Positions 10,169-42,149 of a stretch of DNA of 64,000 nt are shown piece by piece. Source of the stretch: Deltaproteobacteria bacterium (GTDB lineage: Bacteria; Bdellovibrionota; Bdellovibrionia; Bdellovibrionales; Bdellovibrionaceae). Under the pieces are notes generated by a model that worked only from the letters and a program-made list of their open reading frames with translations, had not been told where the DNA came from and searched no databases. Positions within the stretch are counted from its first letter, which is position 1. Each line of letters opens with the position of its first letter. The stretch covers positions 62,001-126,000 of the forward strand of contig JAFLCC010000008.1 in assembly GCA_017302835.1 (NCBI GenBank), read 5' to 3'. The translations under genes were made by a program, and so were the position numbers.

Positions 10169-11398
10169 ATGAATCATTACACTCGAAATGAATTACATAA
10201 AAAAATATTAAACCAAATGGAGCCAATTTGCCATTGGTTCAAACAAAAATCTCTGAACTTAAGATTTCCCATATATTCTAGTTATGACATTAGGGACGCT
10301 GGTTATAAGGTTTCTAATGTCGATGCCAATATTTTCCCGGCTGGCTTTAATAACATATGCCCAACAGATAAAGAGTCTGCCATTGAAATAATGAATATTT
10401 ACTTAAAAGCAAACTATGGTGATCGGCTAAAAAAAATTGTCTTGGTCACCGAAGAACATACGAATAATCCCTATTATTGGGACAATGTCTACACGATTAA
10501 GCATCTTCTTGAATCAACAGGAAAAGAAATTCGGGTAGCCTTTCCTAAGCAGTTAACAGAAAATCTTTTTTTAAAAAGTGCTAATGGTTTTGAAATCATC
10601 GTAGAATCTGGTTTAGGCTCTGATCCTGTTTTTTCTGAGTTCAAACCGGATTTGATAATTAATAACAATGATTTTTCTAATGCCCATGAAGAATGGGTAA
10701 AAACGATAGTTGTGCCACAAAATCCTCCGCGTGAATTAGGATGGTATCAAAGAAAAAAGAGTAATTATTTTAAATACTATAACCAGTTGGTCTCTGAGTT
10801 TGCGGATGTTGCCGGGGTTGATCCCATGTTGTTTTCTGTGAAGACCGAATATTTCCAAAATTTTGATATCAATGAAGAGGCAAGCAAAAAGAAATTGGCT
10901 GAAATTGTGGATCAAACTATTTTGAATTTGAAGAATGAATATGAAAAAAGGGGCTGGCTGCAAAAGCCCTTCGTTTTTGTAAAAAACAATGCGGGAACCT
11001 ATGGTTTGGCCGTGATAAAGGTTGAAAGTGGAAGCGACGTTTTAGAATGGTCTTACAAGTCTCGAAAAAAAATGAAAGCCGCCAAAGGTGGCCGAGACGT
11101 TGAAGAGGTGATCATACAAGAAGGGATTCCTTCTATTGTTGAAAAAGAAGGAGTCGTCGCAGAGCCAGTAATCTATATGATTGGTTCAAGTCTGGCCGGT
11201 GGTTTTTTGAGGACGCATAGTGAAAAGTCATCAACGGAAAGTCTTAATAGCCCTGGCGCTGTTTATAAACGACTCTGCGTGAGCGATTTAGAGATCCGTC
11301 CAGATGGTTGTCCCATGGAAAATGTTTATGGTTGGACCTCAAAATTAGGAGCTTTGGCTATCACTATGGAAGCTAAAGAACTTGGCGTTAGGATCTGA
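10169..11398 (+). CDS. gshA: Glutamate-cysteine ligase, proteobacterial GshA-type
   Basis: This 409-residue protein resembles the ferrooxidans-type glutamate-cysteine ligase family (TIGR02049), which makes gamma-glutamylcysteine, the first step to glutathione. The N-terminal segment YDIRDAGYKVSNVDANIFPAGFNN and a Gly-rich C-terminal ATP-grasp-like region (NNAGTYGLAVI, IIQEGIPS, EPVIYMIG) support this. No glutathione synthetase lies beside it in the window. It is the last gene of the ArsA-pair operon. Recognition is from memory of family motifs, so the exact substrate is moderately certain. Confidence 0.7.
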   Translation: MNHYTRNELHKKILNQMEPICHWFKQKSLNLRFPIYSSYDIRDAGYKVSNVDANIFPAGFNNICPTDKESAIEIMNIYLKANYGDRLKKIVLVTEEHTNNPYYWDNVYTIKHLLESTGKEIRVAFPKQLTENLFLKSANGFEIIVESGLGSDPVFSEFKPDLIINNNDFSNAHEEWVKTIVVPQNPPRELGWYQRKKSNYFKYYNQLVSEFADVAGVDPMLFSVKTEYFQNFDINEEASKKKLAEIVDQTILNLKNEYEKRGWLQKPFVFVKNNAGTYGLAVIKVESGSDVLEWSYKSRKKMKAAKGGRDVEEVIIQEGIPSIVEKEGVVAEPVIYMIGSSLAGGFLRTHSEKSSTESLNSPGAVYKRLCVSDLEIRPDGCPMENVYGWTSKLGALAITMEAKELGVRI

Positions 11399-11579
11399 AC
11401 GGTCGAGTTTCAAAAATGTCTAAAGTTTATTCGATAGTCTTTAATGTCGTATTTTTATACGTTTGAACTGTCTACTTTTCTACAGTGGATAATTAATTTT
11501 TCATCGATTATAGTGCACCTTCAGTTAATTATTTAAAATTAGCTGCGCTTTATATAACTTTATATAAAAGGATAGCTGT

Positions 11580-13292
11580 ATGATCATTAATAAAAGAAAC
11601 TTATTGATTGCTTTGAATCTTTTTACTGTGTTTATCGCCTCCGTTTCTCTCGGTGAAAACAAGTGCCTGCAGACCTACAATTCAAAGAAAATAAGCCCTG
11701 AGGTATTAGGAGGAGTTTCGCGAATCATAGATACAAAGTATTCAAGTAAATTTTTGCTCACAGAAGTCGATAAGCATTTCGATGTTAAATGGGTCACTGA
11801 TCTGGGACCAGTTCTAAACCAAAAAAATTGGGGTTTTTGCCATCTATATTCATTTTTTGAAGAAAAGACTAGGGAATTTAGACAAAGAAATAATGGAAAA
11901 GACCCAAATGTTTCAATCCACTATATGGCATTCCACCACTGGTTAGGAAGAGCTATCAATACTGCTTTAGATCCGAGTTCGCCTTTAAAGCCACAGGAAG
12001 GTGGTTGGTATATCTATGATATAGATCTATTCAAAAAAATTGGATCAATGAAAATGGATGATTATCTTCGATTGGGTGGAAAAACCAATGTTGAAGAAAA
12101 ATTAACCTATTTTTTGGAATCAAGTATTTTAACCAGTACCATTTCTAAAATGCATGACCAACAAAATTTGATTGATGATCTTTTTAAAGATGAATTCTCA
12201 GATAAAGAGATGGAAGAGTTGTCTAAAGGCATTCCTTCTAAATTTAGTCCTGCAAGCAGACTTAAAATTGTAAAAAGAAATTACATGCAACAGCTTTTTG
12301 AGGGTGAAAATTATCGAAGAAAGGATGAGTTTAATGCTTTCGTTAAGGAAAAAGAAGCAGCATTTGAGGCTAAAAAGACCACTTTAACTAAAGATCAAGT
12401 TAACGTAATTAGAGATTTGGCATCTGGTCGGCTTCAAATTGCGACGTTTTCAGCGTCAGAAATCGAAAAAATAAAAATAAATGTTAGAAATGATATTAAA
12501 AAAGAAGTCACTGAACTTTTTTCACAGTTCTTTTTTGGAAAAAATGATGTTCCATCAGAGGTAATGGATCTTAAGAAAAATGTATTTTTAGCAAGATCAT
12601 TGTTCCCAGAAATAGATCAAGCCACTATTTCTGTAAGTGTGGATGAATCACAAATACGTTATGGCACAAAAGTAGGTTTCAAAGCAAAACCAGATTTCGT
12701 AAATAATCATATCTATATGAATGCGTCCAGATCAGTGCTTTATGAACTCATTTCTGAAGAAGTGGATAAGAATAATGGTGTTTGGGTTGGTTATGATCAT
12801 AATGATCCTTTTGTGGCGAATAAACTTGGAGAAGACAATTTAGGTTTGATGTCCCTTCGAGCTTTCTCTTGGACACCGCAATCTGGCTATTTATCAAGAT
12901 ATGTGCGATTTGAAAAAAAGGGTATAGTTAACGGAGGTCATGCCGTTCAAATTGTAGGAATCATTCGTGAAAAAGTTCCTGAATATTTTAAAAATCATGG
13001 TCTAAAAGGAGAGATCATTGGTTTTATAATACAAAATAGTTGGGGTGAAGAGGCTGGGCAAAAAGGATTTTACGTTATGGATAGATCCTATGCCGATGCA
13101 TTCATGTTTGAAATTACAATAAGGGATGAGCAGGGACAAGTATCAGCCCTTAAAGAAAAAATGAAGCAATACAAAAAACAAACTGGCCTTAATCAAAATG
13201 TTCAGAGCAACTCCAATGGTTTTAAAAGATATCTTAATGAGGAAAAGAAAATCCAAGAAGGTCAGTTACTCAGGGAAGCCAGCATAAATTAA
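11580..13292 (+). CDS. Secreted papain-like (C1A) cysteine protease with large insertion
   Basis: This 570-residue exported protein has a signal peptide (about 1-25). The papain-type catalytic elements are present in order: oxyanion Gln81 and nucleophile Cys87 (LNQKNWGFCHLYSF), His454 (NGGHAVQIVGI) and Asn486 (QNSWGEEAGQKGFYVM). The Cys-His distance is 367 residues, against about 134 in papain, so a large charged helical insertion of over 200 residues sits inside the catalytic domain. About 80 Lys/Gln-rich residues follow the core. ATG at 11580 has AAAGGA 7 nt upstream. A small membrane-anchored protein follows 93 nt downstream. It is likely exported to digest host or environmental protein. 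Confidence 0.82.
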   Translation: MIINKRNLLIALNLFTVFIASVSLGENKCLQTYNSKKISPEVLGGVSRIIDTKYSSKFLLTEVDKHFDVKWVTDLGPVLNQKNWGFCHLYSFFEEKTREFRQRNNGKDPNVSIHYMAFHHWLGRAINTALDPSSPLKPQEGGWYIYDIDLFKKIGSMKMDDYLRLGGKTNVEEKLTYFLESSILTSTISKMHDQQNLIDDLFKDEFSDKEMEELSKGIPSKFSPASRLKIVKRNYMQQLFEGENYRRKDEFNAFVKEKEAAFEAKKTTLTKDQVNVIRDLASGRLQIATFSASEIEKIKINVRNDIKKEVTELFSQFFFGKNDVPSEVMDLKKNVFLARSLFPEIDQATISVSVDESQIRYGTKVGFKAKPDFVNNHIYMNASRSVLYELISEEVDKNNGVWVGYDHNDPFVANKLGEDNLGLMSLRAFSWTPQSGYLSRYVRFEKKGIVNGGHAVQIVGIIREKVPEYFKNHGLKGEIIGFIIQNSWGEEAGQKGFYVMDRSYADAFMFEITIRDEQGQVSALKEKMKQYKKQTGLNQNVQSNSNGFKRYLNEEKKIQEGQLLREASIN

Positions 13293-13385
13293 TCAAATCT
13301 GGCTTAAGGTAGAGTATCCAAATAGAAAATGTTACGATAAAATATTCTCGTGGGTCTTTGTTCTTTTTTGGGGCGGGGGGGAGCT

Positions 13386-14006
13386 TTGAGAATATTTTTC
13401 CTTTTAATGATCGCTTTTAGTGCAGGTTACGTTTTCATTTCTTTAACAAATGATAAATACCTAGTTCATCGTAATCCATCGGCTATACGTCAGCACTATG
13501 ATTTTACTCATTTAAAAGGCACGGCTTTGGAAGTAGCCATGCGTGAGAGAATTATTAGTCAAATTGAAATAGTAAAAAATGAAGAAGGATTTGGTTTAAG
13601 TTTAGGGAATTTTGCCTTCAAAAATAATACAGGAGACACCTTTTTTGGTTGTCAGTATTTTAGTAAGGTGGTGTTAATTTTTGAAGGGGAAGGGGCCATC
13701 GTTGGCGGAATGGACAAGCCGCTGATGGAAGTGGAGGGGCCGTGTGAAAGTTCAGAAGACCTTGTAAGGATCAACGCCTTTATGATTCCCATGAAACAAA
13801 TAATGACGGAGAGACCTATGGATGGGGATTTCAACTATAAAAATAAAAGCTCGATGAGTCTTAAATTTTTAAATTTACCAGATGCCTGGCCAACAATTTG
13901 GAATCTGATCGGAGTCAGAATGTCCTCACCACAGAAAGATTTTATTATTGATCGCAATGAAATCACTAAAATAATAGGACAGTCGTTGTTGATTACGATT
14001 AATTAA
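13386..14006 (+). CDS. Membrane-anchored protein of an unnamed CQxF/WPxxW family
   Basis: A single N-terminal membrane segment is followed by a probably periplasmic beta-rich domain with a Cys pair (CQYF, then Cys about 31 residues on) and a C-terminal motif AWPTIW. The same layout (CQTF, Cys about 30 residues on, FWPQHW) occurs in the product of 39385-39993, so the two look like distant paralogues. Both lie directly downstream, on the same strand, of a secreted protease gene. I chose TTG at 13386, preceded by a G-run/GGGGGA Shine-Dalgarno; a GTG at 13350 would add 12 residues before the hydrophobic segment. Function unknown. The last 8 nt overlap the convergent gene. Confidence 0.65.
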   Translation: MRIFFLLMIAFSAGYVFISLTNDKYLVHRNPSAIRQHYDFTHLKGTALEVAMRERIISQIEIVKNEEGFGLSLGNFAFKNNTGDTFFGCQYFSKVVLIFEGEGAIVGGMDKPLMEVEGPCESSEDLVRINAFMIPMKQIMTERPMDGDFNYKNKSSMSLKFLNLPDAWPTIWNLIGVRMSSPQKDFIIDRNEITKIIGQSLLITIN

Positions 14007-39384: not shown

Positions 39385-39993
39385 CTAGTTTGTTTTAGAG
39401 AATTCTAAATTGTAGCCTAAATAAGAGTAAAATTCGTAGTTGTTGAGGTTGATTCCGTCTAGGGATTTGTTGTAAAATTTGATGGATTTTATGATCCAGT
39501 GTTGTGGCCAGAAATCGTCAAAATTTCTGAGTTCATAGCGTGTGTTTTGATCGATAAAATTTTTATCGGTGGGGGATTTTTCAAAAATTTGATTTAAATT
39601 CAGGGTCAAATTATCACAGGTTGTTTGGGCCAGGATTATTGGCGGTTCACCGCTGAGGGCTATTTTGATGGCTTGTAATTGAATTTCAGCATAAGGAAAA
39701 GTTTGGCAGAGGGTCATGTTATTTCCGTCGATTTGTCTAAAAATCAAATTTGGAAATTCAAAAGAGAGAGTTTGATTTTCATTTCTCCAATTAAATTCAG
39801 ATAAGAGATTTCTTTTTATTTTCTTTGCGTTGTTTATCATATCTTCAGGGCTGTAATAGGGATAAGACTCATTTTCTTGAAGACTTGTGGTGATGGCTGC
39901 GGGGTGCCGTTGGCTGTATTTGTGGAGGTAATAAAATAAAACATTAAAAGTAAACAGAAGGATGGCAATAAGGATTTTTTTTCTGAGCTTCAT
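39385..39993 (-). CDS. Membrane-anchored protein of an unnamed CQxF/WPxxW family
   Basis: This 202-residue protein has one N-terminal membrane segment (about 5-25) and a beta-rich exterior domain. It carries CQTF, a second Cys about 30 residues on, and FWPQHW near 160. The product of 13386-14006 has the same order and spacing. Its ATG follows the stop codon of the matrixin-type protease gene with no gap, so the two are translationally linked. A function tied to the neighbouring protease (inhibitor, immunity or maturation partner) is inferred only from this repeated association. Confidence 0.65.
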   Translation of the reverse strand: MKLRKKILIAILLFTFNVLFYYLHKYSQRHPAAITTSLQENESYPYYSPEDMINNAKKIKRNLLSEFNWRNENQTLSFEFPNLIFRQIDGNNMTLCQTFPYAEIQLQAIKIALSGEPPIILAQTTCDNLTLNLNQIFEKSPTDKNFIDQNTRYELRNFDDFWPQHWIIKSIKFYNKSLDGINLNNYEFYSYLGYNLEFSKTN

Positions 39994-40650
39994 TTAGTAC
40001 TCACATTTCAAAGATTTTAAATCTATTGGTGAAATTTCTAATCTTAAAAAGGCAGCCGCCAGGGTTGGCCACATGACGGTAGGTTTGATGCTCATGTGTT
40101 TAAGACCTAAGACGTGCCCCAGTTCGTGAATTATTAGGCTTTCAAAATTTACTTGGACTGAGTTTTGTGGAGTTGTGGTATAAAACTCATAATCTTTTGC
40201 ATTTATTTTGATATCTGCTTCGGTAATAAGAGGTCCCAAATAGGTCAAAATAGTGAGTGCTTGTTGAGATTTATGATTCTCGCTCCAGTCTTTTGACCAG
40301 TAAACAGAGTTTACTTTATCACTGCTGGGTTTTAAAGAAGTGGATTGATTTGATTGTTGAAATTCAAAAAGTTTTTTTCCAGATGCCTTTTCCCATTTTT
40401 CACTGGCGGAGGAAATAATGGGTATCATGTCCCCCGGAATAGAGGAATCAAGGAAGAGTTTTATTGGCAAATTGGATTTCCAAGAAACCCGTTCACCAAA
40501 TTCATTTTGAATATAGCCGCAACCTTCTTGAGCTTGAGTGGCGAGATCTGTTTTAGATTCAGGACCTAAAACTAAATTTTTTTGGCAAGAAATCATGCAC
40601 AAAAAAATAGAAATATGAATTAATGAAAGTTTGATGGAATGTCGCCTCAT
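39994..40650 (-). CDS. Matrixin-like zinc metalloprotease lipoprotein
   Basis: This protein of about 218 residues has a lipoprotein signal with lipobox MISC, then a metzincin catalytic domain. The zinc site is HELGHVLGLKH (HExxHxxGxxH) and the Met-turn is PTVMWP, as in M10 matrixins. The compact domain (about 60-218) lacks a recognisable pro-domain. The ATG at 40650 starts the signal peptide; an upstream ATG at 40683 overlaps a TATAAT on this strand (40682-40687) that may be the -10. It is the first gene of a pair with the WPxxW-family protein. Confidence 0.8.
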   Translation of the reverse strand: MRRHSIKLSLIHISIFLCMISCQKNLVLGPESKTDLATQAQEGCGYIQNEFGERVSWKSNLPIKLFLDSSIPGDMIPIISSASEKWEKASGKKLFEFQQSNQSTSLKPSSDKVNSVYWSKDWSENHKSQQALTILTYLGPLITEADIKINAKDYEFYTTTPQNSVQVNFESLIIHELGHVLGLKHMSIKPTVMWPTLAAAFLRLEISPIDLKSLKCEY

Positions 40651-40787: not shown

Positions 40788-42149
40788 TTGGCCCAATCTG
40801 ATGGATCAGAAATTGCAGCAAAACTTTGCGAAAGAGAGGCCTGGTTCGTTTGGGCACCGTTTATTATGAAACTAGAGCTTAAAAGGTATAACAATATTGT
40901 TGCTTTTAAAATGAAAGGGAAGGCTGATACGGCTCTTGCTTTTCACGAGGATAATTTGGAAGTCGCTCAGATTTCTGATGAGCTGTTCTCTGAGTTAGAG
41001 AAAAAAAACTACGATGAGCTTGTTGCTTGGAGTCGCCGTAAAGAGGTTTTACCAGCTCACCCCAAGAATAATAAAATTAAAAGCGTGAATATCAATGTCA
41101 CCCAGATATGTAATTTGCACTGTCTCTATTGTGCCGCTGGTGGAGATGGATCTTATGGTGATCCAGTTAAAAATATAAGCATCGAAAAAACGCTGCCTCA
41201 GTTGAAATTTTTTTTAGACAAATTAGAAAAGGGGGAGCGTTTTCATATTAGTTTTTTAGGTGGAGAACCATTGCTTTATCCTGAAGGGATTTCACTTATT
41301 GCGGAGTATGCAAGTCAATACGCCGAAGCCAAAGCGCTAAATTTAACGATGAAAATAACGACAAATGGAACGCTTTTAAATGAATCCATAGTGTCCCTTT
41401 TAAAGAAGCATAAACCCACTCTAGTGATAAGTATGGATGGGCCCCCAGAAATAAATGATAAATTGCGGCCTCAAAAAAACTCTCATTCGACATCAATGCA
41501 AATGGTTTCAAATTTGGATAGATTATTTATGATAAAGTCAGAATTGGGTGTTTTAGGAGTTCATGCGGTTTTTTCTGAAAAAAATCTTGAAGTTGTGAAG
41601 GCCTATAAATATTTTTCAGAGTTTCCTTTTGATTTTTATGATTTTATGTTTTCGGTTTCTGAAAACAATCCAACTAGCAATCATGAATACATGGAACAAA
41701 TGGAGCAAGTGGCAGAGTTAGCTTGGGAAAAGGGATCTGAAAAAGAACTTAGAAAAATTTATATTTTTGATCATTATTTTGATCTTTTAGATAATCAAAA
41801 AAGATTAGAAAATCATTGTGGTTTAGGAAAAACACTTGCAGTGATCGACGCCAGAAATAGAATATACAACTGTCCTTGGACGATAGGTCAAAAACAAGAT
41901 CAGATAGGGCAAGATTTGCAAATCAATCAAGAAAAGTTAATTGAAAACTATTCAAATAGCTTGATAGACCGGAACCAGTGCCATCAGTGCTGGGCAAAAT
42001 ATCTTTGCGGTGGAGGGTGTTCTTACATTCACAAATCTACGTATTCTGACAAAGAAGTCGTAAAAAATGATCTTTTTTGTGAAAGAACAAGGTATGTTTC
42101 AGCATTAGCTATATATTATTTTTCAAAGAGCAGAGATTTAATGACTTGA
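40788..42149 (+). CDS. Radical SAM/SPASM enzyme, probable peptide maturase
   Basis: This 453-residue enzyme has the radical SAM cluster motif C108-x3-C112-x2-C115 (CNLHCLYC), a SAM-binding FLGGEPL segment and a complete SPASM region: a Cys pair (CGLGKT...YNC) and C398-x2-C401-x5-C407-x3-C411 followed by C431. The stretches CNLHCLYCAAGGDGSYG and CHQCWAKYLCGGGC resemble thioether-forming maturases (SCIFF/ranthipeptide and QhpD types). The first 85 residues could fold as a peptide-recognition domain. It starts at TTG with GGAG 5 nt upstream. Two tiny ORFs follow at once, which supports peptide modification. Anaerobic sulfatase maturation is the main alternative, but no sulfatase is nearby. Confidence 0.82.
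   Translation: MAQSDGSEIAAKLCEREAWFVWAPFIMKLELKRYNNIVAFKMKGKADTALAFHEDNLEVAQISDELFSELEKKNYDELVAWSRRKEVLPAHPKNNKIKSVNINVTQICNLHCLYCAAGGDGSYGDPVKNISIEKTLPQLKFFLDKLEKGERFHISFLGGEPLLYPEGISLIAEYASQYAEAKALNLTMKITTNGTLLNESIVSLLKKHKPTLVISMDGPPEINDKLRPQKNSHSTSMQMVSNLDRLFMIKSELGVLGVHAVFSEKNLEVVKAYKYFSEFPFDFYDFMFSVSENNPTSNHEYMEQMEQVAELAWEKGSEKELRKIYIFDHYFDLLDNQKRLENHCGLGKTLAVIDARNRIYNCPWTIGQKQDQIGQDLQINQEKLIENYSNSLIDRNQCHQCWAKYLCGGGCSYIHKSTYSDKEVVKNDLFCERTRYVSALAIYYFSKSRDLMT

Follow-up and report, generated by a model that had tools for sequence, protein, structure and literature searches.

Analysing a 64,000-nucleotide stretch of DNA (the window), which belongs to a single contig of a 3.6 Mb genome from the same family as Bdellovibrio, we found that a small protein, B, is the regular, membrane-tethered gene partner of one clade of lipoprotein matrixins, a partnership that is well supported. 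B (202 aa; 39385..39993, reverse strand) is the second gene of a bicistron with a matrixin of peptidase family M10A (218 aa; 39994..40650, reverse strand), whose stop codon abuts the B start codon with a gap of 0. We collected 39 B genes, one of which lies at a contig end, and among the 38 testable loci a matrixin stands directly upstream on the same strand in 36, separated from B by -35 to +7 nt. The matrixin tree separates into two clades (support of the split 99/99), and the paired matrixins occupy one side of it, clade I, in which all 36 members have B directly downstream. No member of the family of B was found near any of the 54 sister matrixins of clade II that were checked (34 of 34, then a further 20 of 20). 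Searching with the matrixin alone recovered six B genes beyond the first set, five of which had been missed by single-sequence searches. The order of the pair is constant across no fewer than five distinct genomic contexts. Mirror-tree comparison was uninformative, with partial correlations of 0.40 for B and matrixin given A, the homologue of B described below, and 0.44 for A and matrixin given B. That matrixin and B are paired is a real and specific feature, and an old one within the family.

The window's matrixin matches the M10A profile (PF00413; E 1.7e-9, 38.2 bits against a Pfam cutoff of 24), belongs to clade I, and carries a lipobox (ISC), the zinc motif HELGHVLGLKH, and both an N-terminal and a C-terminal Cys. 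All 70 matrixins examined have the HExxHxxGxxH motif as well as the C-terminal Cys; a recognisable lipobox is present in many of them and an N-terminal C[GN][FY] in nearly all. Their N-terminus is short and holds no long propeptide, so that latency by means of such a propeptide is impossible. Divergent from the matrixin gene lies a gene for a radical-SAM/SPASM-like protein (40788..42149, forward strand; identity read from the sequence), which occupies this place only in the genus of the window and in a single neighbouring one. Clade-II matrixins (L172-L198 and others) often have, some 40-135 nt further downstream, a gene for a conserved protein of 80-110 aa that has no evident signal and ends like YHEMADVPV...LQDLQxRLxFVMREVRYLMKV.

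An earlier note on this DNA had regarded the product of 39385-39993 as related to that of 13386-14006 (A; 206 aa, forward strand, TTG start), and this view was borne out: by comparison of their sequences, A and B are true homologues. Pairwise BLASTP of A against B gave an E value of 0.037, too weak on its own, and it was the profile comparison that settled the question, aligning 198 columns of the A and B profiles with a probability of 100% and an E value of 4.6e-41. Iterative profile searches seeded with either protein converged on an identical final set of 96 proteins. Within the family tree, B splits from A with a support of 94/83. No family in Pfam, NCBIfam, PHROGs, or PADLOC covers A and B, a sequence search of the PDB gave nothing useful, and the window's A and B have no Pfam match at E values up to 1; scattered Pfam matches of single members (Rpb4, E 3e-4, in one of 52 relatives) were taken as chance. 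The two proteins represent a new protein family, ordinary in kind, with a protease-bound branch.

The motif by which the two proteins had been likened was upheld in part. The two Cys are invariant in all 121 family sequences and spaced by 30 in 114 of them, whereas the Gln of CQxF is variable and WPxxW is kept in 60 of 63 A sequences but in only 18 of 38 B sequences. The final Trp (W172) is present in 120 of the 121. An Arg just past the membrane helix (R29) is found in 119, where it forms part of R-x-P-A-A in A or R-x-x-A-S in B. Since A keeps the same core residues and has no matrixin, these residues are not a signature of matrixin binding.

The family is almost confined to Bdellovibrio-like bacteria. 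A family-profile search of 369 genomes found a member in 126 of the 141 genomes of the order. Outside the order it gave three matches, all in one further family of that class, plus a marginal match (E 4e-4) elsewhere in the phylum. There is one copy in the other families of the order and often two in the window's family; A is the near-universal single gene of the order and the ancestral copy, while the duplicate, B, was seen in the window's family alone. The order-wide envelope protein A would have been duplicated, with one copy joining one of two matrixin paralogues. A third, divergent member of 185 aa in genome G046 (L263 4649-5206) adjoins exported proteins and has no matrixin beside it.

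The surroundings of A agree between the window's family and the other families of the order, from which 20 loci were compared. They comprise, in order, ArsA/Get3-type ATPases, a TPR lipoprotein, a glutamate-cysteine ligase of the PF08886 type, A, PepA, ClpP, and ClpX. In the window, the conserved upstream neighbour of A across the order, the ligase (GshA), is located at 10169..11398 (forward strand), and between it and A lies a gene for a papain-like secreted protein (11580..13292, forward strand), which matches the Peptidase C1-like profile (PF03051; E 4.7e-13, 49.2 bits against a cutoff of 22). The distance from this reading frame to the TTG of A at 13386 is 93 nt, shrinking to 57 nt with the GTG at 13350 as the start; a G-rich run, GGGGGGAG, just 5' of the TTG fits the start at 13386. 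The gap around A between the ligase and PepA-ClpP-ClpX (11399-13385 in the window, and the same gap in relatives) is prone to insertions of unrelated genes, which include papain-like, PLD-like, clostripain, beta-propeller, and Omp85 genes and an HTH gene with an exported protein.

These data bear on the earlier and wider idea that the A/B family as a whole pairs with secreted proteases regardless of their type, the papain-like enzyme included, an idea that began from the window arrangement and to which one divergent clostripain beside an A gene of another family (L234) might be added. At 31 of the 63 A loci in the window's family, the ligase is directly upstream on the same strand; a papain-like neighbour occurs at one of the 63, in the window, and a matrixin at none. 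Within the window's family, the two nearest homologues of the papain-like gene are on other contigs with no A/B family member beside them. The papain link is thus private to the window, those two homologues stand apart from the A/B family, and the gap readily takes in other genes, for which reasons the papain-like gene is best read as a private insertion, a local coincidence with no part in the conserved unit. The neighbourhood survey largely refutes the any-protease idea, which we now consider highly improbable. Of the two secreted-protease neighbours named in the earlier note, the matrixin is a partner family-wide and the papain-like enzyme is confined to the window's genome, and the notion of the small protein as the shared element beside unrelated proteases finds no support, as the usual upstream neighbour of A is the glutamate-cysteine ligase. 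A is mostly located away from protease genes, while B is beside the matrixin, and the proposal of a membrane-tethered protease partner therefore survives for B and not for A, with inhibition or self-protection as a putative role.

What happens to B once the matrixin has disappeared can be seen in two sister genomes (G015 and G026), which retain B and have no clade-I matrixin. In these genomes, B keeps 54-56% of the conserved positions, compared with 72-100% in 19 paired relatives, and has a 7-residue deletion between the two Cys, while A and the clade-II matrixin are on short branches. The degeneration of B is suggestive of dependence on the matrixin, and suggestive only, because it is one event in two genomes. 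It also bears on the explanation that the proximity is inherited synteny and nothing else, with a housekeeping envelope gene duplicated beside a matrixin and never moved since. Such a history would be in keeping with an order-wide family whose ancestral copy is protease-free and with matrixin–B pairs that appear to descend from one event; however, the abutting order has been kept through at least five surroundings, every clade-I matrixin has its B, and B is eroded where the matrixin was lost, which together make the explanation improbable.

Structure prediction was carried out for the window's A and for a B protein of B. bacteriovorus, with six sequences each. The models (A: pLDDT 80, pTM 0.74; B: pLDDT 79, pTM 0.69) agree in secondary structure and in their top structural match, so that A and B share a predicted fold. 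A and B each have one N-terminal hydrophobic helix, and both models run from this membrane helix through a flexible stretch of low confidence and a short helix to a beta-sandwich; in the window's B, the predicted parts are the membrane helix, a linker, and an Ig-like beta-sandwich with the invariant C96 and C126. The top match is the N-terminal domain of Cwp6 (5j72; Z 7.8 for A and 7.4 for B, about 102 residues), followed by FnIII and Ig-like domains, all with Z below 8, which indicates a common beta-sandwich arrangement alone and has no functional meaning. Foldseek (E 0.14 for A and 0.27 for B) returned common beta-sandwiches and no named family, and the lack of an inhibitor family there is not evidence. 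In the A model, C89 immediately precedes the first of two successive strands and C120 immediately follows the second, so that a disulphide closing this hairpin is plausible.

The flexible linker of both models, with its nearly invariant R-x-x-A-[SA], also raises the possibility that B is a substrate: by cutting the linker, the matrixin would free the sandwich from its inner-membrane anchor, in a regulated step of signalling or release. The motif in the linker is conserved just as well in the matrixin-free A, and we regard cleavage of B as rather unlikely.

Our preferred reading, for which we see roughly even chances, is that B is a dedicated inner-membrane-tethered partner of the clade-I lipoprotein matrixin that binds, restrains, or escorts the newly exported enzyme. 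Matrixin and B would be made from one transcript with coupled translation, and the matrixin would be exported as a lipoprotein lacking a long propeptide. B would be anchored in the inner membrane and expose its sandwich to the periplasm, its flexible linker with R-x-x-A-[SA] lying between the membrane helix and the sandwich, and would bind the new matrixin, keeping it inactive or escorting it until it exits to the outer membrane or beyond. Two observations run counter to a dedicated partner, namely that the sister-clade matrixin, of the same build, has none, and that B survives, though eroded, after the one loss of the matrixin in two genomes. The unpaired sister matrixin, together with the protease-free A, calls for caution about a role in restraint or escort, and B may instead be a foldase, an adaptor, or a substrate.

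Known systems offer parallels in layout. AprI/Inh is a periplasmic inhibitor of serralysin-type M10 proteases in Pseudomonas and Serratia, with a putative function in protecting the producer; it is soluble once its signal peptide has been cleaved, and it inserts its free N-terminus into the active site (PMC4070987). Like AprI/Inh, B is a small protein of the envelope, by its predicted location, whose gene adjoins that of an M10 protease; unlike it, B has a membrane anchor as its N-terminus, and its protease is a lipoprotein of the matrixin type, where AprI/Inh has an RTX serralysin. Neither A nor B matches the AprI/Inh family in Pfam (E up to 1), nor does any of 52 relatives. The potempins of Tannerella forsythia are small envelope inhibitors encoded in a bicistron with a KLIKK protease and reported to be specific for that neighbour; they are lipoproteins, and their genes precede the protease gene (PMC7296668). 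B resembles them as a small protein, of predicted envelope location, in a bicistron with a protease, but it follows the protease gene in 36 of 36 pairs, and the lipoprotein here is the protease. No N-terminal Cys is present in the window's A and B, and the anchor of their aligned relatives has no lipobox. The KLIKK proteases include the matrixin-like karilysin, and one protease of these bicistrons is a matrixin. AprI/Inh and the potempins thus show that the gene of an M10 protease can adjoin that of a small envelope inhibitor. The analogy with AprI and the potempins is one of layout and not of sequence, and B has no detectable relation to either family. On this analogy, the likeliest task of B is to capture the matrixin at the inner membrane just after export and to restrain or escort it.

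The Lif lipase-specific foldases, which are helical and membrane-anchored, have a linker and are encoded directly downstream of a secreted lipase. B is likewise an anchored partner with a linker directly downstream of the gene of a secreted hydrolase, and it could accordingly be imagined as promoting its enzyme, in the manner of a steric foldase or an assembly chaperone anchored in the membrane that helps the propeptide-less matrixin to fold and then hands it on. The order from enzyme to partner, the N-terminal anchor with flexible linker and predicted periplasmic domain, and the absence of a long propeptide from the matrixin all suit this proposal. Yet Lif is helical and serves a lipase whereas B is a predicted beta-sandwich, the sister matrixin of the same build has no such partner, and the Lif foldase profile in Pfam matches neither A, B, nor their relatives. 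We consider a foldase an unlikely account of B, if a somewhat better one than cleavage of its linker.

Predatory bacteria of the Bdellovibrio type export many proteases and must avoid self-digestion, and B probably controls or escorts the matrixin. The one paper retrieved that mentions both Bdellovibrio and matrixin is a review of RTX proteins, and a 2025 proteome of predation does not name the matrixin–B pair in the passages retrieved. An order-wide envelope protein may, tentatively, have been duplicated to give an inner-membrane-tethered controller of a lipoprotein matrixin, which would be a new family and a new layout for restraining an M10 protease. A itself stands for an order-wide protein family that has had no name, and the matrixin and B provide a concrete, conserved protease–partner pair, in bacteria for which laboratory strains exist, with the unpaired sister matrixin as an internal control and a natural loss event.
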